A DNA stretch of 64,000 nt, taken from Methylobacter sp. (GTDB taxonomy: Bacteria; Pseudomonadota; Gammaproteobacteria; Methylococcales; Methylomonadaceae). The notes beneath the pieces are model-generated. The model searched no databases, was not told the origin of the DNA, and worked only from the letters and a program-made list of their open reading frames with translations. Below, piece after piece: positions 23,120 through 33,834 of this stretch. A program made the translations under genes and the position numbers. Every line of letters begins with the position of its first letter. Position 1 is the first letter of the stretch. Location of the stretch: assembly GCA_030653175.1 (NCBI GenBank), contig JAURZV010000018.1, forward strand, positions 1-64,000, in the 5' to 3' direction.

Positions 23120-24274
23120 GTGAAGAAAACAAAGCAACTGTTCGCAGGTCTGATCTTAATGGCTTTGGGCCTAGGGACAGCGCAGGCGGAATATACGCTC
23201 AATTTAATGAAAGGGGTTACAAAGGTCAGTAATGACATTTATGACCTGCACATGCTGGTTCTATGGATTTGTGTATTCATAGGTGTCGGTGTGTTCGGAA
23301 CTATGTTCTACTCGATTTACCATCATCGTAAATCAAGAGGACATAAAGCGGAGCAGTTTCATGAAAATACGACGGTTGAAATTATTTGGACTATTATCCC
23401 GACCTTGATTTTGATTGGCATGGCCATTCCAGCCACGAAAGCCATGATAGAGTTGGATGATGTGCAAGAATCCGAAATGTCTATTAAGGTAACCGGGCAT
23501 CAATGGAAGTGGGAATATGAATATCTTGATAATGGGATTCATTTTTTCAGCAGCCTGGATGAGGCCAGTAATAAAGTACGCCAGGTAGGATCAGGTATGG
23601 ATCCTCGATCGGTTCCTCATTACTTGTTGAATGTCGATAAGCCGTTAGTTATTCCAACTAAAAAGAAAATTCGTTTTGTATTTACTTCTGCGGACGTAAT
23701 CCATTCATGGTGGGTGCCGGATCTGGGCTGGAAAAAAGATACTAATCCCGGGTTTATCAACGAATCATGGACTTCTGTTGATGAGCCGGGTACTTATCGC
23801 GGTCAATGTACCGAGCTTTGCGGTAAGGACCATGGGTTTATGCCGATCGTTGTGATTGCAATGAACGAACCTGATTACAATGCCTGGGTAGACCAACAAA
23901 AAGCGGCTGTGGCTGCTGAAACGGGCTCGGCTAGCAAACAGTGGACTAACGAAGAGCTGATTGCTAAAGGTAAAACTGTCTATGAGACTAGTTGTGCATC
24001 CTGTCATATGCCGGACGGTACCGGGTTGGCAGGTACTTTCCCAGCTCTAAAGGCAAGCCCGGTGGTAACCGGCGATATTAACGCTCAAGTTAAGCTAGTC
24101 TTTGAAGGAAAAGGCATGATGCCGGCTTTCGGAAAAATGTTAAGCGCAGTTGATTTCGCGGCAGTCGTAACATATACCCGTAATAGTTTGGGTAATTCAG
24201 TGGGTGATTCTATTCAACCTTCAGCTATCCAAGCTCTGCAATCGGGAACACCGGCGGCAGATAAAAATGAATAA
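23120..24274 (+). CDS. coxB: Cytochrome c oxidase subunit II with fused cytochrome c domain
   Basis: This subunit takes electrons for the aa3-type oxidase. Start is GTG 23120 behind GAGGAGG. It has a signal peptide (residues 1-24), two membrane helices (about 45-70 and 88-110) and the CuA domain with VIHSWWVPDLGWKKD and CTELCGKDHGFMPI. After residue 270 follows a cytochrome c domain with CASCH and the distal ligand Met in KGMMPAFG. The fusion makes it a caa3-like subunit II, which can bypass a soluble cytochrome. It heads the cox operon. Confidence 0.96.
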   Translation: MKKTKQLFAGLILMALGLGTAQAEYTLNLMKGVTKVSNDIYDLHMLVLWICVFIGVGVFGTMFYSIYHHRKSRGHKAEQFHENTTVEIIWTIIPTLILIGMAIPATKAMIELDDVQESEMSIKVTGHQWKWEYEYLDNGIHFFSSLDEASNKVRQVGSGMDPRSVPHYLLNVDKPLVIPTKKKIRFVFTSADVIHSWWVPDLGWKKDTNPGFINESWTSVDEPGTYRGQCTELCGKDHGFMPIVVIAMNEPDYNAWVDQQKAAVAAETGSASKQWTNEELIAKGKTVYETSCASCHMPDGTGLAGTFPALKASPVVTGDINAQVKLVFEGKGMMPAFGKMLSAVDFAAVVTYTRNSLGNSVGDSIQPSAIQALQSGTPAADKNE

Positions 24275-24328: not shown

Positions 24329-25936
24329 ATGTCTGCTGTAGTCGCTGAACATGATGATCATCACGATCATAGTCCTGCCAAGGGGCTCTTAAGATGGGTT
24401 ATTACCACCAATCATAAAGATATCGGCACGTTATATTTGCTGTTTGCTCTGACCATGTTTTTTGTCGGCGGCGCAATGGCAATGGTTATTCGCGCCGAAT
24501 TGTTTGAGCCGGGTATGCAGTTTGTTAATCCCCAGTTCTTTAATTCAATGACCACCATGCACGCCTTGGTTATGGTATTCGGTGCAGTTATGCCGGCATT
24601 CGTCGGCTTGGCCAACTGGATGATTCCAATGATGATTGGCGCTCCGGATATGGCATTGCCGCGCATGAATAACATGAGCTTCTGGATGCTGGTTGCCGGT
24701 GTTTTATTGCTGGCCAGCACCTTGTTTATGGAAGGTGGCGCACCTGCCAGTGGCTGGACTTTGTATCCGCCATTGGTGTTGCAAACCGGTAAGGCATTGC
24801 CTTTTGCGATTTTCTCGGTGCATTTGCTGGGTATTTCGTCAATTATGGGCGCTATTAATATCATTGCCACCATTTTCAATATGCGCGCTCCCGGCATGAC
24901 CCTTATGAAAATGCCGATGTTTGTTTGGACTTGGTTGATTACTGCTTTCCTGTTGATCGCGATCATGCCTGTTTTCGCAGGCGCAGTGACCATGTTGTTA
25001 ACAGACAAGTTTTTTCACACCAGCTTTTTTGACGCTGCCGGTGGCGGTGACCCGGTTCTTTATCAGCACATATTCTGGTTCTTTGGGCACCCCGAAGTTT
25101 ATGTGATGATTCTGCCTACTTTCGGCGTGGCTTCTACAATTATCCCGGTATTTGCTCGTAAGCCGCTGTTTGGCTATAGTTCAATGGTTTATGCGACTGC
25201 TGCCATTGCATTTTTGTCATTCATCGTATGGGCTCACCACATGTTTACAGTGGGCATGCCGATAGCAGGCGAGTTGTACTTCATGTACGCAACCATGTTA
25301 ATTGCAATCCCAACCGGGGTTAAAGTGTTTAACTGGACTGCAACCATGTGGAAAGGCTCGATGACTTTTGAAACGCCGATGCTGTTTAGTATTGCTTTCG
25401 TCGTTTTGTTTACGATGGGCGGATTCACCGGTTTGATGATGGCTGTTGCGCCTGTTGATTTCCAGTACCACGATACTTATTTTATTGTCGCGCATTTCCA
25501 TTATACATTGGTTCCCGCTTCCGTATTTATATTGATGGCTGCCGGTTATTTTTGGCTGCCTAAATGGACCGGTCATATGTATGATGAAAGAATCGGCAGG
25601 TTGCATTTCTGGTTATCTGTAATATCGGTCAATATCCTGTTTTTCCCGCAACATTTCTTGGGGCTTGCCGGCATGCCGCGCAGAATTCCAGATTATGCCG
25701 TGCAATTTGCGGATTGGAATATGATTTCCAGCATCGGCGGATTTATATTCGGCGCCAGCCAGTTGTTGTTCCTGTATATCGTTATCAATACAATCAAAGG
25801 CGGAACGGGCGAGAAAGTGACTGCTGAAGTATGGGAAGATGCAGCCAAGCATAGCTTGGAATGGACTTTACCGTCACCACCGCCGTATCATACTTTCACT
25901 ACACCACCTACAGTTATACCTACTGAGCATATCTAG
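24329..25936 (+). CDS. coxA: Cytochrome c oxidase subunit I
   Basis: This is the catalytic heme-copper subunit. It has 535 residues and twelve membrane helices. Visible ligands and channels are heme a His in TTMHALVMVFG, CuB and cross-linked His-Tyr in FWFFGHPEVYVMILP, HH in VWAHHMFTVGMP, and the heme a/a3 His pair in YFIVAHFHYTLV. The N-terminal HDDHHDHSPAK is His-rich. It is a type A heme-copper oxidase subunit next to coxB. Confidence 0.97.
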   Translation: MSAVVAEHDDHHDHSPAKGLLRWVITTNHKDIGTLYLLFALTMFFVGGAMAMVIRAELFEPGMQFVNPQFFNSMTTMHALVMVFGAVMPAFVGLANWMIPMMIGAPDMALPRMNNMSFWMLVAGVLLLASTLFMEGGAPASGWTLYPPLVLQTGKALPFAIFSVHLLGISSIMGAINIIATIFNMRAPGMTLMKMPMFVWTWLITAFLLIAIMPVFAGAVTMLLTDKFFHTSFFDAAGGGDPVLYQHIFWFFGHPEVYVMILPTFGVASTIIPVFARKPLFGYSSMVYATAAIAFLSFIVWAHHMFTVGMPIAGELYFMYATMLIAIPTGVKVFNWTATMWKGSMTFETPMLFSIAFVVLFTMGGFTGLMMAVAPVDFQYHDTYFIVAHFHYTLVPASVFILMAAGYFWLPKWTGHMYDERIGRLHFWLSVISVNILFFPQHFLGLAGMPRRIPDYAVQFADWNMISSIGGFIFGASQLLFLYIVINTIKGGTGEKVTAEVWEDAAKHSLEWTLPSPPPYHTFTTPPTVIPTEHI

Positions 25937-25999: not shown

Positions 26000-26098
26000 A
26001 TGAATACCAAACAGAAAAATATTTTGACAGCGGTGGTTTTGGTTACGGTTGCGGTCATCATTTATGTTTTTGCAGTGATAAGAGCAGTTTCTCAATGA
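26000..26098 (+). CDS. Small membrane protein between coxA and ctaG
   Basis: This 32-residue frame ([17 protein letters not shown]... ending RAVSQ) has one hydrophobic helix with positively charged residues before it. It ends within the ATG of ctaG (ATGA overlap). Short single-helix proteins at this place in proteobacterial cox operons are thought to be oxidase assembly factors. GGTGA before the ATG may be the ribosome site. It is too short for most gene finders. Confidence 0.7.
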
Positions 26099-26637
26099 AG
26101 GAAGGCGTTACTCAAAAAAACGCTAAGTTAGTTCGTATATTGGTGTTTGTTGTACTGGGAATGTTTGGTTTTGGTTATGCTCTGGTTCCGCTTTATGATG
26201 TTTTGTGTGAAGTAACGGGACTCAATGGCAAGGTCGAACCGTCGGCTGTTAAGGAAGTCAGCTACGAAGTTGATAAAAGCCGAGAGATTACCGTAGAATT
26301 CATGACTGCGCTGAATGAGGCTACACCGATGGTGTTCCGTTCAGAAATAAAAAAAATAAAGGTTCACCCAGGTGAATATGTCACGGTGAATTTTTATGCG
26401 GAAAATAAGACCGATAAAGTAATGGTTGCGCGGGCAATTCCAAGTATTTCGCCCGGAGCGGTTGCTGAATTTTTTAAAAAAACAGAGTGTTTTTGTTTTT
26501 CAGAACAGACATTTAAGGCGCGAGAAGGCAGAACCATGCCGGTGCGTTTTGTTGTTAACCCTGAAATTCCAAAGGAATATAAAACAATCACACTTGCGTA
26601 CACATTTTTTGATAATACTGAAACATCAGTGAAATGA
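26095..26637 (+). CDS. ctaG: Cytochrome c oxidase assembly protein CtaG (Cox11)
   Basis: Cox11 delivers copper to the CuB site of subunit I. It has an N-terminal membrane anchor ([35 protein letters not shown]) and then a periplasmic immunoglobulin-like domain. The copper-binding CFCF motif lies in [13 protein letters not shown] (about residue 140). At 180 residues it is the normal length. It is followed 12 bp later by coxC. Confidence 0.95.
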
Positions 26638-26649
26638 GAGAGGAAGGTC

Positions 26650-27513
26650 ATGTCTACAAGTAACGAGTATTACATTCCGCATAAAGCTACCTGGCCGGTC
26701 ATTGGAACTGCCGGTTTGGTGATGATGCTGGCTGGATTTGCAAATTATTTAAATGGTTCGGCAGCCGGTTCGGCTTGGATGTTGTTGGGGCTAACGGTAT
26801 TTATTGTTATGCTTGCCGGGTGGTTTACATTGCAGTCCGGGGAAAGTGAATCAGGCATGTATAGTACGCAGGTAGGTATTTCCTATCGTATGGGCATGAT
26901 GTGGTTTATCTTTTCGGAAATCATGTTTTTTGCCGTTTTCTTTGGTACGCTTTGGTATACGCGTAATCTATCGGTGCCTTGGTTGGGTGGAGAAGGCACA
27001 GGGGCTGCAACTAAAGAGTTATTGTGGCCTTCTTTTGACGCAGTTTGGCCTACAAACGGTCCCGGTAAAGTCGGCGGTGAATTTGAGCCTATGGGAGCGT
27101 GGGGATTGCCTTTCCTGAATACCTTGATTTTGTTAACCAGCGGCGTATCTTGTACCTGGGCTCATCACGGCTTGCTTGCAAAAAACCGTGATCAGTTAAT
27201 TAAAGGGTTGATAGCTACTGTGGGTTTGGGGCTGTTGTTCGTGTCATTCCAGGCATTCGAATATCACGAAGCTTATACCGAAATGGGTTTAACTTTGGGT
27301 TCAGGTATTTATGGGTCTACCTTTTTCATGTTGACCGGTTTTCATGGTTTTCATGTTTGTGTAGGCGCTATTATCCTGAGCGTTGTATTGTTTCGTAGCT
27401 GGAAAGGTCACTTCAAACCGGAAAATCATTTCGCTTTTGAGGCCGCAGCCTGGTATTGGCATTTTGTTGACGTGGTATGGTTAGGATTATTTATATTTGT
27501 TTATGTAATTTAA
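26650..27513 (+). CDS. coxC: Cytochrome c oxidase subunit III
   Basis: The protein has 287 residues with seven membrane helices. Family signatures are YRMGMMWFIFSEIMFFAVFFG, GVSCTWAHHGLL, FQAFEYHEAY, LTGFHGFHVCVGA and the C-terminal AAAWYWHFVDVVWLGLF. It completes the core oxidase. A bidirectional terminator follows at 27529-27566. Confidence 0.96.
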   Translation: MSTSNEYYIPHKATWPVIGTAGLVMMLAGFANYLNGSAAGSAWMLLGLTVFIVMLAGWFTLQSGESESGMYSTQVGISYRMGMMWFIFSEIMFFAVFFGTLWYTRNLSVPWLGGEGTGAATKELLWPSFDAVWPTNGPGKVGGEFEPMGAWGLPFLNTLILLTSGVSCTWAHHGLLAKNRDQLIKGLIATVGLGLLFVSFQAFEYHEAYTEMGLTLGSGIYGSTFFMLTGFHGFHVCVGAIILSVVLFRSWKGHFKPENHFAFEAAAWYWHFVDVVWLGLFIFVYVI

Positions 27514-27586: not shown

Positions 27587-27838
27587 TTATTTAACAGGGG
27601 CGACTGGCGTTTGGTGCATTCGAGCACCCAGACCGTGAGGCGTGAACATGCCGGTTGCAAAAGCTATGAAAATGAAAATAAATAATACGATTGAAAGTGT
27701 AATGCGAAAAGTCAGTGCTTTGACTGTTTTTTCGGATTGTTCCTGAGTCTTGTGTGTAACCAGATGGAATAGTGCTGAGCCCAGGCTGATAATTATCAGA
27801 ATAAAGGCGATAATAACGATGCTTTTTATAATCATGAG
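27587..27838 (-). CDS. Twin-helix membrane protein (DUF2909-like)
   Basis: With the ATG at 27838 the protein has 83 residues: helix 1 (IVIIAFILIIISLGSALFHLVT), a Lys/Gln-rich loop (HKTQEQSEKTVKALTFR) and helix 2 (ITLSIVLFIFIFIAFATGMF). Small two-helix proteins opposite SURF1 in gammaproteobacterial cox clusters belong to DUF2909. A longer frame from 27940 would overlap the surf1 start and looks non-coding at its N terminus. Function unknown; oxidase-assembly context. Confidence 0.8.
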   Translation of the reverse strand, partial: LMIIKSIVIIAFILIIISLGSALFHLVTHKTQEQSEKTVKALTFRITLSIVLFIFIFIAFATGMFTPHGLGARMHQTPVAPVK

Positions 27839-27939
27839 TATAGTTGTTCGTTGATGGATAAGGTTTTTGTATTCTCGGTTATTTAGCTGTCTGTGCCAAT
27901 AGGATAAAGAAAAAAGCATGATTTCTCGGATACTGGTCA

Positions 27940-28662
27940 ATGAAGTTTAAAATCATTCCAACGTTAGTTTATTTGTGCCTGTTACCAGCGTTGATTGCGT
28001 TGGGAATGTGGCAATTGGATCGCTCAGAACAGAAGCGGGCATTTCTTAAAGTGCAGGAACGAGCGGTCGCAACTGAAACGCTGCATTTGTCGACGGCTAT
28101 TGAAAACAATACAGAGGCACTGAGATATAGAAATGTCGAGGTTACAGGGCGTTACGATGTGGCTCACCAGTTTTTGATAGATAATCAAATCAGCGACGGG
28201 AAGGCAGGCTATTTTGTCTTGACGCCATTCATATTGACGGGGGAAACCAAGGCGGTTTTGGTGAACAGGGGCTGGATTCCTTTAAATCAGGATCGATCCG
28301 TTCTTCCTGATTTGCAGGTTAATAAGGCGGAAGCGATTATTACCGGACGGATTAATAATTTTCCAAGCGTTGGTATAAAATTAGCAGGGGCGGAAATTCC
28401 AACAGCAGGTTGGCCATCGGTAGTGCAGGTGGTTGATAGTCATGTATTGGCTGAAAAATTAGGCTATTCATTATTTCAATTCCAGATTGAGTTGGCTAAA
28501 GAGTTACCTGATGGATTTAAACGGGAATGGCATACATCAACCATTATGCAGCCAGAACAACATACGGCCTATGCAATTCAATGGTTTGCATTGGCATTGA
28601 CACTAACGATACTATTTATTTGGTACAGCTTTAAAAAGAACAATGCACAATCAAAAGAATAA
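27940..28662 (+). CDS. SURF1 family oxidase assembly protein
   Basis: SURF1 assists heme a insertion into subunit I. It has two membrane helices, at residues 3-22 (IIPTLVYLCLLPALIALGMWQL, with the family GMWQLDRSEQKR) and near the C terminus (AYAIQWFALALTLTILFIWY). The loop between carries VEVTGRYD and VLVNRGWIPL. At 240 residues it is normal. It overlaps the next gene by 20 bp. Confidence 0.93.
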   Translation: MKFKIIPTLVYLCLLPALIALGMWQLDRSEQKRAFLKVQERAVATETLHLSTAIENNTEALRYRNVEVTGRYDVAHQFLIDNQISDGKAGYFVLTPFILTGETKAVLVNRGWIPLNQDRSVLPDLQVNKAEAIITGRINNFPSVGIKLAGAEIPTAGWPSVVQVVDSHVLAEKLGYSLFQFQIELAKELPDGFKREWHTSTIMQPEQHTAYAIQWFALALTLTILFIWYSFKKNNAQSKE

Positions 28663-29239
28663 AAATCATATATTAATTCTGGTTATTTTTGGGATGTCTG
28701 TTATCCCCTTTTTGATCGCTTGGGGATTAAAAGAGAATCCGCAGCTCTTAAAGGGACAAACCAATCATGGACAGTTAATAACGCCGCCATTGACAACCGA
28801 GCGTAGTGATCTAACCGGTTTTGACCGGTTTTCAACTGATAATATGTCCGAGCTTACCGGGCACTGGCTGCTGGTAAACGTCATTCCAAATGGCGATTGT
28901 AATGAATCGTGTATTGAAGCTATTCATAAAACCAAGCAGTTACGGCTCATGTTGAATAAAGAATTGACTCGTACCCGTCGAATCGTCATGGTTTTAAAAG
29001 ACGTTGCGCCGGAAACCGCGGGCAAATGGTGGGAAGATGACAAGACCTTATTAAGAGTTAAGCCCAATGATGCGGTTATCAAGAAAATTGCCGCAATCAG
29101 GCAAGGTAATATTCCTGACGGGATGCTTTTGTTAATGGACCCGTTGGGTAATTTAATGATGCAGTATGAGCCGGGTTTCGATCCTTACAACGTAAAAAGC
29201 GATCTTATGCATCTTTTGCGAATCTCACAAATCGGATAG
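28643..29239 (+). CDS. Membrane-anchored oxidase-cluster protein, SCO-like
   Basis: The protein has 198 residues with one N-terminal membrane helix (ILILVIFGMSVIPFLIAWGL) and a periplasmic domain with a possible thioredoxin-like fold (GHWLLVNVIPNGDCNESCIEAIHKTKQ). The CNESC pair corresponds in position to the CxxxC copper site of SCO proteins, but the downstream His of SCO is not obvious. This type is common between surf1 and ctaA in gammaproteobacteria. It probably helps oxidase biogenesis (inference). It abuts the next start (29239). Confidence 0.75.
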   Translation: MHNQKNKNHILILVIFGMSVIPFLIAWGLKENPQLLKGQTNHGQLITPPLTTERSDLTGFDRFSTDNMSELTGHWLLVNVIPNGDCNESCIEAIHKTKQLRLMLNKELTRTRRIVMVLKDVAPETAGKWWEDDKTLLRVKPNDAVIKKIAAIRQGNIPDGMLLLMDPLGNLMMQYEPGFDPYNVKSDLMHLLRISQIG

Positions 29240-31245
29240 TGGAAAATAAAATGTTTAGAAAAATAACTCTCTTTAGCGTTGTTTTAGCTTTAATAGTTAT
29301 CGTAGCAGGTTCGTACGTTCGGTTATCCGGAGCAGGTCTGGGCTGTCCTGATTGGCCTGGATGCTATGGGCAGGCCATTGTTAGCGAGCAAGCCGATTTT
29401 AAAGCGCATGCGGCGGAGGCATTTCCCGGTCAGACTCCCGATATTGAAAAAGCCTTGAAGGAAATGAGTCACCGTTATTTGGCGGCAACCTTGGGCGTGA
29501 CTGTCTTGTTGCTGGCGTTGCTTTCGTGGCGCGAACAACAAAGCCGCCTGGCGGTCGTTACAGCCGCATCAGGCTTGGTGCTTTTGGTTGGATTGCAGGC
29601 GGCTTTAGGCATGTGGGCCGTAAAATTGCACGTTATGCCGATTGTCGTAACCGGCCATTTGTTGCTGGGCATGATGACTTTCTGGCTGCTGTTCTGGTTG
29701 TATTTACGGGTTAATCCGAAGGCCCCGTTATTAACTGTGCGTCGGAACGGGTTGGCCGTATTTGCCCGAGTTGCAATGTTGGTCTTGTTTTTAGAGATTG
29801 TTTTAGGCGGCTGGGTTAGCGCGAACTATGCAGCCCTAGCCTGTTCGGGCTTTCCCCAGTGCAATGGCTCATGGTGGCCCAAAGCCGATTATCAAACAGC
29901 ACTGGACTTATTTAGCGGATTAAGAACAGGTTATACCGGTGTCATCGCATTCGATGCGCAAGTTGCGGCAAACTGGTTGCACAGGGTCGGTGTGCTGGTT
30001 AGTTTTATTGTGCTCACTCTGTTGATATTGAGCGCAACATCGGCGCATCATCCAAAACCGGTAAGAAAAGCCGGCTTATGGCTGAGTGTGCTGCTGTTGA
30101 TGCAGATCGGATCGGGCATTATCGGCGTCAAATTCGGGCAACCTTTATGGGCGGCGGTGGCTCATAATGCTTTTGCAGCATTGTTAATGCTGCCGTTGAT
30201 TGCTATCGGTTTTTACAGTCGGCATGTTTATGTTGAAGAGCTAAAGCCTGCCGTAGAGGTTGAGCCGCAACGGGAAGGCGCAGCCGTCCCTGCAGCGGAA
30301 GAAGCTTATCCGGTAGCGGAACCCGAGTCGTTATACTTACGCCTTAAAACACAGCTAAAGCGAACCCGTTCAGGACTTAGCGGAGTTTTGGCACATATAC
30401 CTATCGGTCGACAAGAAATTGACGAGGACTTGCTCGAAGAAATTGAAGCCAGTTTGTTAATGGCTGATATAGGCGTTGACGCGACCACAGAAATAATCAA
30501 GCGTTTGACTGAACGTGTTGAGCGGCACCAGCTCAATGACGGCGAGGCGTTATCAGCCGCTTTAAAGCAGGAATTGCTGAGTATGCTCCAGCCCTGCAGC
30601 AAGAATTTGCACATCCCAAAGCAGGATAAACCTTTTGTTATCCTGGTTGTCGGCGTCAATGGCGCGGGTAAAACCACAACTATCGGCAAGCTGGCCAAGC
30701 GTCTGCAGGCACAAGGTCATAGCGTCATGTTAGCCGCCGGGGATACGTTTAGAGCCGCGGCTGTCGAGCAATTGCAAACCTGGGGGGAGCGTAATAATAT
30801 TCATGTGGTCGCTCAGCATACCGGGGCCGATTCGGCATCCGTTATCTATGACGGCGTTCAATCCGCGCAGGCGAAAGGTATAGATGTTTTAATTGCCGAT
30901 ACGGCCGGGCGCCTGCATACAAAATCCAACCTGATGGACGAATTGAAAAAAGTAAAACGGATTATCAGCAAGCTGGATGAAACAGCGCCTCATGAAGTGC
31001 TGCTGGTGCTGGATGCCGGTACCGGGCAAAATGCCTTGTCGCAAACAAAACTGTTTAACGAAACTGTGGCATTGACAGGCTTGGTCCTGACCAAACTTGA
31101 TGGCACTGCAAAAGGCGGTATTATTTTCGCGCTGGCCAAACAGTTCGGAATCCCGATTCGTTTTATAGGAATAGGCGAAGGTATTGATGATCTGCAGGAT
31201 TTCGATGCAGATGCTTTTGTAAATGCATTGTTTGTCAAAGACTAA
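29239..31245 (+). CDS. ctaA-ftsY: CtaA-FtsY fusion: heme A synthase joined to SRP receptor
   Basis: One open frame of 668 residues. Residues 1-335 are a complete-looking CtaA/COX15 heme A synthase: eight hydrophobic helices and all four heme histidines (EMSHRYLA, VTGHLLLG, NWLHRVG, AVAHNAFA). Residues 335-365 are a Pro/Glu/Ala-rich acidic linker. Residues 365-668 are the FtsY N and G domains: DLLEEIEASLLMADIGVD, P-loop GVNGAGKTTTIGKLAK, AAGDTFRAAAVEQL, IADTAGRLHTKSNL, LTKLDGTAKGG. No stop or good internal start separates them. Both parts would sit correctly if the CtaA C terminus is cytoplasmic. ftsE and ftsX follow. ctaB, usual after ctaA, is absent here. Confidence 0.9.
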   Translation: MENKMFRKITLFSVVLALIVIVAGSYVRLSGAGLGCPDWPGCYGQAIVSEQADFKAHAAEAFPGQTPDIEKALKEMSHRYLAATLGVTVLLLALLSWREQQSRLAVVTAASGLVLLVGLQAALGMWAVKLHVMPIVVTGHLLLGMMTFWLLFWLYLRVNPKAPLLTVRRNGLAVFARVAMLVLFLEIVLGGWVSANYAALACSGFPQCNGSWWPKADYQTALDLFSGLRTGYTGVIAFDAQVAANWLHRVGVLVSFIVLTLLILSATSAHHPKPVRKAGLWLSVLLLMQIGSGIIGVKFGQPLWAAVAHNAFAALLMLPLIAIGFYSRHVYVEELKPAVEVEPQREGAAVPAAEEAYPVAEPESLYLRLKTQLKRTRSGLSGVLAHIPIGRQEIDEDLLEEIEASLLMADIGVDATTEIIKRLTERVERHQLNDGEALSAALKQELLSMLQPCSKNLHIPKQDKPFVILVVGVNGAGKTTTIGKLAKRLQAQGHSVMLAAGDTFRAAAVEQLQTWGERNNIHVVAQHTGADSASVIYDGVQSAQAKGIDVLIADTAGRLHTKSNLMDELKKVKRIISKLDETAPHEVLLVLDAGTGQNALSQTKLFNETVALTGLVLTKLDGTAKGGIIFALAKQFGIPIRFIGIGEGIDDLQDFDADAFVNALFVKD

Positions 31246-31253
31246 AGAAGCTT

Positions 31254-31910
31254 ATGTTAAAGTTTGATAATGTCAGTATGAGGTACCCTGAAGCAGGCGA
31301 TGTATTGCGTAATGTCAGTTTTCATCTACAACGTGGTGAAATGGCTTTTCTGACGGGGCATTCAGGAGCAGGAAAAAGCACATTATTGAAATTGATTGCG
31401 GTCATTGAGCGTTGCAGCCGGGGGCAGGTTTTATTGGACGGCGAAAATCTCAATCTGGCTAAGGATAGGCAGGTTCCTTTCATACGCCGGAAAGTGGGGT
31501 TGATCTTTCAGGATTACAAACTGCTACAGGATAGAACGGTTTTCGATAATGTCGCATTGCCGTTAGTGATAGCAGGCTACGGACACCATGAAGTTTCCCG
31601 AAGGGTGAGAGCATCATTGGATAAAGTCGGCCTATTAGGCAAAGAAAAGAAATATCCCGCTGTCTTGTCCGGTGGGGAGCAGCAGCGGGTCGGGATTGCC
31701 AGGGCTGTAGTTAATAAGCCGCCGATGATTTTGGCCGATGAGCCGACCGGAAATCTCGATCCGGAGCTGTCCGCCGAAATCATGCATTTGTTTGAACAGT
31801 TTCAACAGGTTGGAGTCACTATATTGATCGCCTCGCATGATATTTCATTGATTGCTCAAATGAATCATCGGATCTTAAAGCTGGATCACGGGCAACTGGT
31901 TGCAAGTTAA
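31254..31910 (+). CDS. ftsE: Cell division ATP-binding protein FtsE
   Basis: This ABC ATPase works with FtsX and activates septal peptidoglycan hydrolases through EnvC or similar. Walker A is GHSGAGKST, the Q-loop LIFQDYKLLQDRTVFDNVALPL, the signature LSGGEQQRVGIARAV, Walker B MILADEPTGNLD and the H-loop ASHD. At 218 residues it is standard. It starts 8 bp after the CtaA-FtsY stop and 3 bp separate it from ftsX. Confidence 0.96.
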   Translation: MLKFDNVSMRYPEAGDVLRNVSFHLQRGEMAFLTGHSGAGKSTLLKLIAVIERCSRGQVLLDGENLNLAKDRQVPFIRRKVGLIFQDYKLLQDRTVFDNVALPLVIAGYGHHEVSRRVRASLDKVGLLGKEKKYPAVLSGGEQQRVGIARAVVNKPPMILADEPTGNLDPELSAEIMHLFEQFQQVGVTILIASHDISLIAQMNHRILKLDHGQLVAS

Positions 31911-31913
31911 ATT

Positions 31914-32909
31914 ATGAAACACGTTAATAAAAAGCCGGTTAAACAGGAACCGCGCTGGCAAACCAAAATTTCCGGCGGCAATTTTGTCGATAAATTTCAT
32001 GCTTATCGGAATCTTCATGCGCATGCGTTGTTTTCAAGTCTTGGACGATTAGTCGCGTCACGATTTTCTTCTGCAATGACGATTGTTGTTTTGGCGATTG
32101 CCATTTCGCTAGCCAGTGGATTTTATATTCTGGTGGCGAACCTCCAGCAGTTGGCGGGCAATTTGGAAGCCAGCAATCAAATCTCTTTATTTCTTAAAGA
32201 CGAAATTTCAGAAGCAAAGGCAAACAAGTTTGCAGCCAGTATCAGGCAAAACCCCGACATTCAGGAAGTTAAATTAATTACCAAGGAGCAGGCGCTGGCA
32301 GAGTTTCAGTCGCACAGCGGATTCGGTGAAGCAGTAAAGGCCCTGGAAAAAAATCCGCTACCGATTGTCATTCAGGTGTTGCCCAAAAATGCATTGGAAA
32401 ACGAGCAGGCGCTTGAGGTTTTGCTTGATGATTTTAAGCGCTCGGCGGAAGTTGATTTTGCCCAGATGGATATGCAATGGGTCAAACGCCTGCAGTCTAT
32501 TATGGAAGTGGCACGGCGCGGCGTTATTTTATTGAGTTTGTTGCTGGGGGCGGGAGTGCTGTTTATTACTGCCAATACCATACGCCTGGAATTGCATAAT
32601 CGCCGCGATGAAGTCGTGATCGCAAAACTGGTGGGTGCGACCAACGGCTTCATTCATAGGCCGTTTTTGTACAGCGGTTTCTGGATTGGCTTTTTTTCCG
32701 GCGTGACAGCATGGTTTATTGTTACAACGATCATGCTGATTTTAAAACAACCTGTCGAAAAGCTTTCCAGACTTTATGATGACGCTTTCCATGTGCTGTT
32801 TTTTGGCTTTACTGAAACCTTGGCATTGTTGTTCATCTCGTCTGTGTTGGGTGTGGTGGGTTCATGGATAGTACTTCATTTTCAACTGCGGCAATTAAAA
32901 CCTGAGTAG
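31914..32909 (+). CDS. ftsX: Cell division protein FtsX
   Basis: This membrane partner of FtsE has 331 residues: a cytoplasmic N-terminal extension of about 55 residues, helix 1 (MTIVVLAIAISLASGFYILV), and a periplasmic domain (NLEASNQISLFLKDEIS through IVIQVLPKNALEN). Three further helices follow, ending at ETLALLFISSVLGVVGSWIVL. The conserved HNRRDEVVIAKLVGATNGFI precedes helix 3. It is followed by the CIRCE-like operator of rpoH. Confidence 0.95.
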   Translation: MKHVNKKPVKQEPRWQTKISGGNFVDKFHAYRNLHAHALFSSLGRLVASRFSSAMTIVVLAIAISLASGFYILVANLQQLAGNLEASNQISLFLKDEISEAKANKFAASIRQNPDIQEVKLITKEQALAEFQSHSGFGEAVKALEKNPLPIVIQVLPKNALENEQALEVLLDDFKRSAEVDFAQMDMQWVKRLQSIMEVARRGVILLSLLLGAGVLFITANTIRLELHNRRDEVVIAKLVGATNGFIHRPFLYSGFWIGFFSGVTAWFIVTTIMLILKQPVEKLSRLYDDAFHVLFFGFTETLALLFISSVLGVVGSWIVLHFQLRQLKPE

Positions 32910-32943: not shown

Positions 32944-32976
32944 AATTCAAAAAAAGTTTTTTACATGGGAGTCTCA

Positions 32977-33834
32977 ATGAGTAACGCATTAGCTTTGCCT
33001 ATTAATTTATCGGTCGGAACATTCGACGCCTATTTAAATGTCGTCAGGCAAATGCCTAAATTGACAGTTGAACAGGAACGCGAGTTAGCCTTAAAATTCA
33101 GAGATGACGGCGATTTGGAAGCCGCACGCGAATTGGTGATGACCAATCTGCGCTTTGTGATTCACGTTGCCAGAGGCTACAGCGGCTATGGCTTGTCTAT
33201 GCCGGATATTATTCAGGAAGGCAATATCGGTTTGATGAAAGCCGTTAAACGTTTTGATCCTGATGTCGGTGTGCGTTTGGTTTCTTTCGCCGTACACTGG
33301 ATTAAGGCTGAAATTCACGAGTATGTGATTAAGAACTGGGGTATCGTAAAAGTTGCCACAACCAAGGCGCAGCGCAAACTGTTTTTTAACTTGCGTAAAT
33401 CCAAACAGGATTTAGGCTGGCTATCCAATGACGAGGCGGTGGCGATTGCCAAAGATCTTGATGTCGATGTGAGTGCCGTTTACGAAATGGAAAAACGCTT
33501 GGGCAGCAAGGATATGTCGTTTGATATGCCGGTCGATGAATCAACGGAAGAAAGCTATGTTGCTCCAGCCAGCTATCTTCATCAGCACGGCGCTGATCCT
33601 GCGGTACTGCTTGAGAATTCGGATTGGGAAGGCCATGAGCAGGATTTATTGGCAGATGCGATGGCGGAGCTGGATGAACGCAGCCTGGATATTCTTTCAA
33701 GCCGCTGGCTGATGGACAAAAAAGCTACATTGCATGAGCTTGCCGAACGCTACAATGTCTCTGCTGAGAGAATCAGGCAACTGGAACAAAATGCGATGAA
33801 AAAATTGAGAGCGGCGGTTGAACTTGCTGCTTGA
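32977..33834 (+). CDS. rpoH: RNA polymerase heat-shock sigma factor RpoH (sigma32)
   Basis: It has 285 residues from ATG 32977, which follows GGGAG with good spacing; an in-frame ATG at 32965 lies before that site. Region 2.1-2.4 holds NLRFVIHVARGYSGYGLSMPDIIQEGNIGLMKAVKRFDPDVGVRLVSFAVHWIKAEIHEYVIKNW. The RpoH-specific box QRKLFFNLRKSK follows it. Region 4 with the helix-turn-helix LHELAERYNVSAERIRQLEQNAMKKLR is complete. It directs transcription of chaperones and proteases and is preceded by a CIRCE element and followed by a terminator. Confidence 0.97.
   Translation: MSNALALPINLSVGTFDAYLNVVRQMPKLTVEQERELALKFRDDGDLEAARELVMTNLRFVIHVARGYSGYGLSMPDIIQEGNIGLMKAVKRFDPDVGVRLVSFAVHWIKAEIHEYVIKNWGIVKVATTKAQRKLFFNLRKSKQDLGWLSNDEAVAIAKDLDVDVSAVYEMEKRLGSKDMSFDMPVDESTEESYVAPASYLHQHGADPAVLLENSDWEGHEQDLLADAMAELDERSLDILSSRWLMDKKATLHELAERYNVSAERIRQLEQNAMKKLRAAVELAA

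Follow-up and report, generated by a model that had tools for sequence, protein, structure and literature searches.

A heme A synthase domain fused to the signal recognition particle receptor FtsY in Methylobacter and related Methylococcales

The receptor of the signal recognition particle (SRP), FtsY, is an essential protein whose NG GTPase domain usually follows a soluble, acidic A domain. According to passages of PMC2780400, FtsY is peripheral in Escherichia coli and has one transmembrane helix in some Gram-positive bacteria, the existence of a soluble phase of the E. coli receptor is debated, and an artificial FtsY tethered by a transmembrane (TM) segment functions in E. coli. Heme A synthase, CtaA or Cox15, of type 1B (Bacillus subtilis, 6a2j) has eight helices, four heme histidines, a glutamate and two cysteine pairs; in the account given in parts of PMC7327177, heme b lies in the C-terminal bundle, at the core of the trimer, and the substrate heme O in the N-terminal bundle. 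This report concerns a gene that joins the two proteins, ctaA::ftsY, found in a stretch of 64,000 nucleotides of Methylobacter sp. DNA (positions 1 to 64,000 of contig JAURZV010000018.1, assembly GCA_030653175.1), hereafter the window, together with its counterparts in other members of the order Methylococcales.

The fusion shares features with each of the described systems and departs from each of them. Like FtsY (TIGR00064; PDB 2yhs and 6cqp), it has an NG GTPase domain, about 60% identical to the E. coli FtsY chains, retains the amphipathic first helix, and is followed by the neighbours ftsE, ftsX and rpoH found in the sister families; unlike FtsY, it has an eight-helix CtaA domain in place of the A domain. 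The window copy agrees with type 1B CtaA in its eight helices, four histidines, glutamate and two cysteine pairs, whereas it differs in being fused to FtsY, and many of its relatives have a broken catalytic half with the heme b half kept. Fusions of CtaA with another gene, CtaB, are described in passages of PMC8239418 and PMC12808453, but the partner there is the preceding enzyme of the pathway, and here it is an unrelated SRP receptor. As in the artificial tethered FtsY of PMC2780400, to the extent described in those passages, a permanent transmembrane anchor stands instead of the A domain; here, however, the arrangement is natural, is fixed in a whole group, and uses a heme protein as the anchor.

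Text searches of the literature found no published description of a CtaA-FtsY fusion. In the passages at hand from work on CtaA types and oxidase assembly, including PMC8239418 and PMC12808453, CtaB is the only fusion partner of CtaA that is named. PMC12808453 also states there that its alignments excluded sequences in which the synthase domain is fused to another gene, and its authors may have met the CtaA-FtsY fusion.

The fused gene and its carriers

A single open frame on the forward strand (29239-31245, 668 aa) holds both CtaA and FtsY. The Pfam family COX15-CtaA (PF02628) matches residues 9-318 with 224.5 bits against a cut-off of 29.9, SRP54_N (PF02881) matches residues 390-446 and the SRP54 GTPase (PF00448) residues 465-665, and the NCBIfam model for ftsY, TIGR00064, matches residues 394-665 with 374.9 bits, above its curated cut-off of 260.7. 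The first-pass annotation of this DNA, made from the letters of the sequence, had described a single-frame fusion of FtsY with a complete CtaA, having all four heme histidines, through an acidic, proline-rich linker, and each of these elements is borne out: the four histidines (H78, H140, H248 and H309), E75 and both cysteine pairs are present, and the linker of 31 residues (about 331-361) is acidic and rich in alanine and proline. The usual A domain was not found, and CtaA plus the linker stand in its place. The likelier start is ATG 29251 (residue 5 of the 668-aa version) rather than GTG 29239, because the stop codon of the gene before it overlaps the GTG, and because 24 of the 153 distinct fusions compared below open their frame only at residue 2-5 (668-aa numbering). 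GC (guanine plus cytosine) content is 0.49-0.52 around the junction, without a step.

In an AlphaFold2 model of the window's fusion protein, eight membrane helices precede the FtsY NG domain, and the linker between them (326-358 when counted from ATG 29251) is disordered. The earlier proposal that CtaA replaces the A domain as a true membrane anchor is supported. The best 50 Foldseek hits are FtsY- and Ffh-type chains only, FtsY crystal structures among them; the CtaA part is linked by sequence to 8aw5 and, weakly (E 0.00036), to the heme A synthase 6a2j. A set of short fusions (L107-L113, 565-571 aa), probably genus g14 of the family sample, lacks the TM2-TM3 stretch and keeps the heme b half and FtsY. 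The model of this short form has six helices before FtsY (predicted local distance difference test, pLDDT, 66.7; predicted template modelling score, pTM, 0.44), and, because an even number of helices is lost, FtsY would stay cytoplasmic.

The window's genome, an assembly of 109 contigs that is 99.97% complete, gave no second ftsY match, so that the fusion is the only ftsY found there. The SRP-GTPase matches that remain, Ffh (TIGR00959, 564.5 bits, cut-off 473.2) and FlhF (TIGR03499, 270.9 bits, cut-off 174.15), both score below the FtsY cut-off. Of the separate copies that the first-pass annotation had proposed to look for, ftsY was thus not found and the other two exist: a second, stand-alone CtaA of 344 aa on contig C25 (L003, 1462-2496), with Asn at the first heme position and without the second cysteine pair, and a stand-alone ctaB on contig C98.

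The fusion also recurs in relatives, where the same annotation had suggested seeking it. Throughout the window's GTDB family, 144 of 151 genomes have both parts in one frame, a count that includes two broken at contig ends (G041, G064) and one in which a 567-aa frame holds the end of CtaA plus FtsY (G057); the other seven have best E-values of 1e-17 to 1e-43, without a fusion or FtsY row. Within a sample of the order (121 genomes), the families denoted f1-f6 are fused in 99 of 101 genomes, counting one cut by a contig end that runs from CtaA into FtsY (G222), the two remaining genomes being G207 and G214, and the two sister families, f7-f8, in none of 20, ftsY being a separate frame in every f7-f8 genome where it was found. 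Family f7 may be Cycloclasticus-like. Samples of the class (370 genomes, 365 of them outside the order, four of the 370 without any match) and of the phylum (299 genomes, 298 of them other genomes, partly shared with the class sample) gave no joined CtaA and FtsY outside the order among the matches listed, which were sorted by E-value, and none of these matches starts before query residue 314, the very end of CtaA.

Named carriers among the best 80 loci are Methylobacter tundripaludum SV96, M. marinus A45, M. luteus, Methylotuvimicrobium buryatense 5G, Methylovulum miyakonense HT12 and Crenothrix sp. D3, and the same loci include the complete genome of Methylomicrobium sp. wino1; two carriers checked in the NCBI taxonomy both belong to Methylococcales. 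A chimeric assembly is rejected, as many further genomes carry the fusion, some of them on long single scaffolds and one as a complete genome record. The other long frames ahead of FtsY that were read are of a different kind. Five outside the order were read (G303, G462, G520, G508 and G348), and their upstream stretches look non-coding or like an A domain, with proteins beginning at usual FtsY starts; those inside the order (L176-L178, L185, L186 and L189) are upstream read-through with no extra domains. Two individual loci may be recorded here: L091 (6001-7971), a fusion discussed below, comes from one Methylovulum metagenome-assembled genome, and L187 (6372-7482), from genome G214 of family f4, has CtaA without ftsY nearby, no ftsY being found in this 89% complete assembly, where the fusion has possibly been split again.

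Conservation of the substrate half and the heme b half

The comparison rests on 153 distinct fusions, namely 132 fused loci reduced to 103 by merging 29 that share their last 600 residues, plus 50 further ones. Three of them, L097 (a frameshift on a low-coverage contig) and L103 and L046 (contig-end cuts), are in the counts over 153 rows and out of those over the 150 full-length fusions. As controls we used unfused CtaA from 15 of the 20 f7-f8 genomes and the 30 best-scoring of 98 copies of the second, stand-alone CtaA (CtaA2), all from the window's family.

The two halves of the fused CtaA differ sharply in what they keep. In the N-half, which would bind the substrate, C36 is kept in 115 of the 150 full-length fusions, C42 in 114, E75 in 58, H78 (His or Asn) in 103 and H140 in 95; in the C-half, C202, H248 and H309 are each kept in 149, and the set C202, C208, H248 and H309 is complete in 152 of 153. 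With H78 as the first heme position (H1), H140 as the second (H2), and the N-site taken as both N-half cysteines, H1 (His or Asn) and H2, the N-site is broken in 78 of the 150 and intact in 72. In Methylotuvimicrobium buryatense, for instance, the fused protein has R at H1 and Q at H2. All nine marker residues are intact in 46 of 153 fusions, the window's included, and the type 1B residue set, present in the window copy, does not hold across the fusions, as the count for E75 illustrates. Within the window's genus the markers are intact, except for Ala at E75 in one of 11 rows. A FastTree phylogeny of the FtsY domain requires at least 16 changes of N-site state, at least 23 of H78 and at least 20 of H140, and one change for each of the C-half residues counted, although change counts alone do not separate loss from gain. 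Among the controls, all nine residues are kept in 15 of 15 unfused CtaA proteins examined, and all 30 CtaA2 proteins examined keep C36, C42, E75, H140, H248 and H309, while H1 is Asn there and the second cysteine pair is absent.

The roles of these residues are treated in parts of PMC12808453, where H1 is naturally Asn in some proteins, mutants with changed H1 or H2 are inactive, and the N-terminal cysteine pair matters for activity while the C-terminal pair does not. By these roles, many fusions have lost residues required for catalysis, and the second cysteine pair, which is dispensable for it, is present in nearly all. The fusions amount to a natural dissection of heme A synthase, with at least 16 changes of state in the substrate half while the heme b half stays, and this dissection bears on the purpose of heme b and of the second cysteine pair.

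Mean pairwise identity among the fusions is 0.347 in the N-half and 0.445 in the C-half, the N-half being the lower in 2471 of 3000 sampled pairs; the order is reversed in unfused CtaA (0.764 and 0.669; N-half lower in 0 of 105 pairs) and in CtaA2 (0.881 and 0.731; 2 of 435), the three groups being unequal in breadth. In 25 matched genomes (300 pairs, using 25 of the 30 CtaA2 rows), mean identity is 0.534 for the fused N-half, 0.897 for the CtaA2 N-half and 0.819 for the fused FtsY. Here the fused N-half lies slightly below the fused C-half (0.557; lower in 161 of 300 pairs), and the fused C-half is less conserved than the C-half of CtaA2 (0.744) in 300 of 300. Median ratios of nonsynonymous to synonymous substitution rates (dN/dS) for the N-half and the C-half are 0.122 and 0.109 in the window's genus and 0.086 and 0.095 in g12, both with intact sites, as against 0.184 and 0.110, 0.197 and 0.127, and 0.243 and 0.150 in three broken groups, with 0.03-0.05 for the FtsY part in all groups; these groups are hand-chosen and cover 47 of the 153 rows, some medians come from few pairs, and dS is often saturated. 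The window's own CtaA part has no visible decay, and its N-half is under purifying selection.

CtaA2 (matches at E 1e-55 or better) is present in 98 of the 101 f1-f6 genomes and in 0 of the 20 f7-f8 genomes. The match is absent from G154, G164 and G223; G154 and G223 have a fusion with an intact N-half, and in G164, an 85% complete assembly, the N-half is not intact. This distribution agrees with an order of events in which the fusion would have come first, CtaA2 would then have been gained, and the enzyme half of the fusion would then have been released; heme A would now come mainly from the stand-alone CtaA2.

Function of the fused protein

We consider it probable, at about 70%, that the fusion has made the SRP receptor of the methanotrophic Methylococcales an integral membrane protein, with a heme b-bearing anchor as the role shared by its members. 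The CtaA helices, with their C-terminus in the cytoplasm, would keep the NG domain of FtsY at the membrane at all times, and the NG domain, on its flexible acidic linker, would dock Ffh-ribosome complexes as usual. Selection would keep the heme b-containing C-bundle as an anchor or assembly platform. A permanent anchor seems workable because the TM-tethered FtsY functions in E. coli (passages of PMC2780400). Heme A synthesis by the fused CtaA appears, from the residues lost, to be dispensable in many lineages; in the lineage of the window the fused CtaA still appears to have all that catalysis requires and may act as an enzyme as well. The near-invariant heme b ligands argue for more than a bare anchor. 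This picture of an anchor and heme b module is drawn from sequence, gene order and a structural model. A group of environmentally important methanotrophs, cultured strains among them, appears to have only an integral receptor, so that the need for a soluble FtsY phase becomes testable in nature.

Several points weigh against this proposal. The L091 fusion has lost H2, the second cysteine pair and both heme b histidines and its frame is still open, so heme b is not absolutely required. Alignment errors are possible in the N-half for the most divergent sequences. Passages of PMC8239418 tabulate natural CtaA types altered at E57, H60 or H123, or without cysteine pairs, which means that a lone substitution is no proof of an inactive enzyme; single substitutions are accordingly weaker evidence than a lost cysteine pair, His-to-Arg or His-to-Gln changes, or a helix deletion. 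Confidence in the AlphaFold2 model is moderate (mean pLDDT 75.1, pTM 0.50), the kept heme b ligands may reflect only folding of the C-bundle, and proteolysis may release FtsY from the fusion.

One competing explanation is that of a passive anchor, for which any membrane segment would suffice and in which the C-bundle heme is retained merely for folding. The function of the TM-tethered FtsY in E. coli (PMC2780400, in the passages cited), the even number of helices left after the loss of TM2-TM3 in one group, and the absence of the heme b histidines from L091 all speak for it, but across the sampled families the heme b ligands are near-invariant while the N-half persists without its ligands, and we regard it as possible though somewhat doubtful. 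A tentative reading, which we hold to be rather unlikely, gives the heme a more active part: the C-bundle heme and cysteine pair would form a sensor of redox state, oxygen or heme that tunes the SRP receptor to the respiratory state. It draws on the presence of H248, H309, C202 and C208 in 152 of 153 fusions, even those without a substrate site, and on the statement in parts of PMC12808453 that the second cysteine pair, kept here, is not required for heme A synthase activity; against it, no signal path through the disordered linker is known, the heme may be structural, and L091 has lost the heme b site. If the fused CtaA were, speculatively, such a module, adjusting the receptor and hence membrane protein insertion to heme, oxygen or redox conditions, it would provide a direct link from heme to protein targeting in methanotrophs, and the module would have evolved by decay of the active half once a second CtaA took over catalysis.

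The first-pass annotation had favoured another idea, that the fusion couples heme a synthesis to the insertion of CoxA, the fused CtaA being an active synthase that supplies heme A at the site of CoxA insertion by SRP. In the window's genus this is possible, the N-half being under purifying selection (median dN/dS 0.122); the nine markers are intact in 46 of 153 fusions, the window's included, the gene lies behind the cox genes, and G154 and G223 combine a fusion and an intact N-half with no CtaA2 match. It is not supported as a general function, since the substrate half is broken in 78 of the 150 full-length fusions, with no fewer than 16 state changes on the FtsY tree, one group (L107-L113) lacks TM2-TM3, and CtaA2 accompanies the fusion in 98 of 101 genomes; overall we judge it unlikely. 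Less likely still, and in our view improbable, is that FtsY is an independent product, translated from a start inside the gene or released from the fusion by cleavage. In E. coli, a form of FtsY cleaved at the border of the A and N domains also occurs, and 107 of the 153 linkers contain some in-frame ATG, GTG or TTG, 22 of them with a 4-base match resembling a Shine-Dalgarno sequence. However, ATG occurs in only 13, 46 linkers have no in-frame start, and the window's linker is among these, with none in 37 codons. Promoter-like sites are at chance level (4 found, 4.1 expected). Terminator-like sites, scored as consensus matches only, exceed chance in 28500-31400 (8 found, 3.4 expected), and one of them (30145-30167, forward strand) lies inside the end of CtaA.

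Gene order and origin of the fusion

In the unfused sister families (L168-L170 were read), a cox-surf1-orf198-ctaA-ctaB series converges on rpoH-ftsX-ftsE-ftsY on the opposite strand, and in L168, by our reading of the sequence, ftsY is divergent from two peptidase-like genes. The fused order is cox, surf1, orf198, ctaA::ftsY, ftsE, ftsX and rpoH (Table 1), in some genomes followed by an antisense ctaB; the complete layout, with antisense ctaB behind rpoH, occurs in L175 and L242 (f6) and in L241 (the window's genus). By position, ctaB lies antisense and 1.0-6.9 kb downstream of the fusion in 11 of the 99 fused genomes of the order sample, namely nine of the ten f6 genomes, G195 (f4) and G083 (f1, the window's genus); the tenth f6 genome, G187, gave no ctaB match. 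In L113 and L108, ctaB is antisense and comes after ftsE.

Judged from gene order, one inversion explains the fusion and the position of ctaB better than a deletion does. One breakpoint would fall at the 3' end of ctaA, the other within the 5' stretch of ftsY that codes for the A domain; the inversion would swap the short A domain of FtsY for CtaA, bring ftsE-ftsX-rpoH behind the cox genes and displace ctaB, with later moves accounting for the remaining positions of that gene. Most simply, the fusion is ancient and of single origin. Less in keeping with this scheme, 88 of the 99 fused genomes are without ctaB just downstream: in genus g41 of f4 (4 genomes) ctaB is antisense about 15 kb upstream of the fusion, and in the rest it is far off, on another contig or not found. 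The first-pass annotation had noted that the neighbouring ctaB is missing and had ascribed the fusion to a deletion. The gene is indeed displaced from the side of ctaA, but it survives in the window's own genome (on C98), as it does antisense downstream in the 11 genomes above, and a deletion as the cause is set aside, the unfused order and the placements of ctaB fitting an inversion.

Table 1. Coordinates of the fusion gene, its parts and its neighbours in the window
Feature	Position	Strand	Remarks
coxB	23120..24274	+	COX2 with a cytochrome c domain at the C-terminus; part of the oxidase cluster upstream
coxA	24329..25936	+	Named from sequence and context; sister families have a homologue next to ctaA
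ctaG/cox11	26095..26637	+	PF04442
coxC	26650..27513	+	Named from sequence and context
DUF2909 gene	27587-27940	-	Between coxC and surf1
surf1	27940..28662	+	PF02104
orf198	28643..29239	+	No Pfam match at E 1e-4
ctaA::ftsY fusion gene	29251..31245	+	664 aa from ATG 29251; 668 aa from GTG 29239
CtaA N-bundle, TM1-4, substrate heme O half	29251..29718	+	Residues read; helices modelled
N-bundle residues	C36 29344, C42 29362, E75 29461, H78 29470, H140 29656	+	
CtaA C-bundle, TM5-8, heme b half	29731..30228	+	Residues read; helices modelled
C-bundle residues	C202 29842, C208 29860, H248 29980, H309 30163	+	
Acidic Ala/Pro-rich linker	30229..30321	+	Disordered in model
FtsY amphipathic first helix (SLYLRLKTQLKRTRSGL) and N domain	30322..30576	+	
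FtsY G (GTPase) domain	30631..31233	+	
ftsE	31254..31910	+	ABC_tran; name from context; starts 8 bases past the fusion stop
ftsX	31914..32909	+	
rpoH	32965..33834	+	Sigma-70 regions 2 and 4; name from context

Two details of the neighbourhood may be added. In L174 (2381-3208, family f3), rpoH is on the opposite strand upstream of surf1, rather than behind ftsX. The gene orf198 may encode an oxidase assembly factor; its place between surf1 and ctaA is the same in the unfused sister families.

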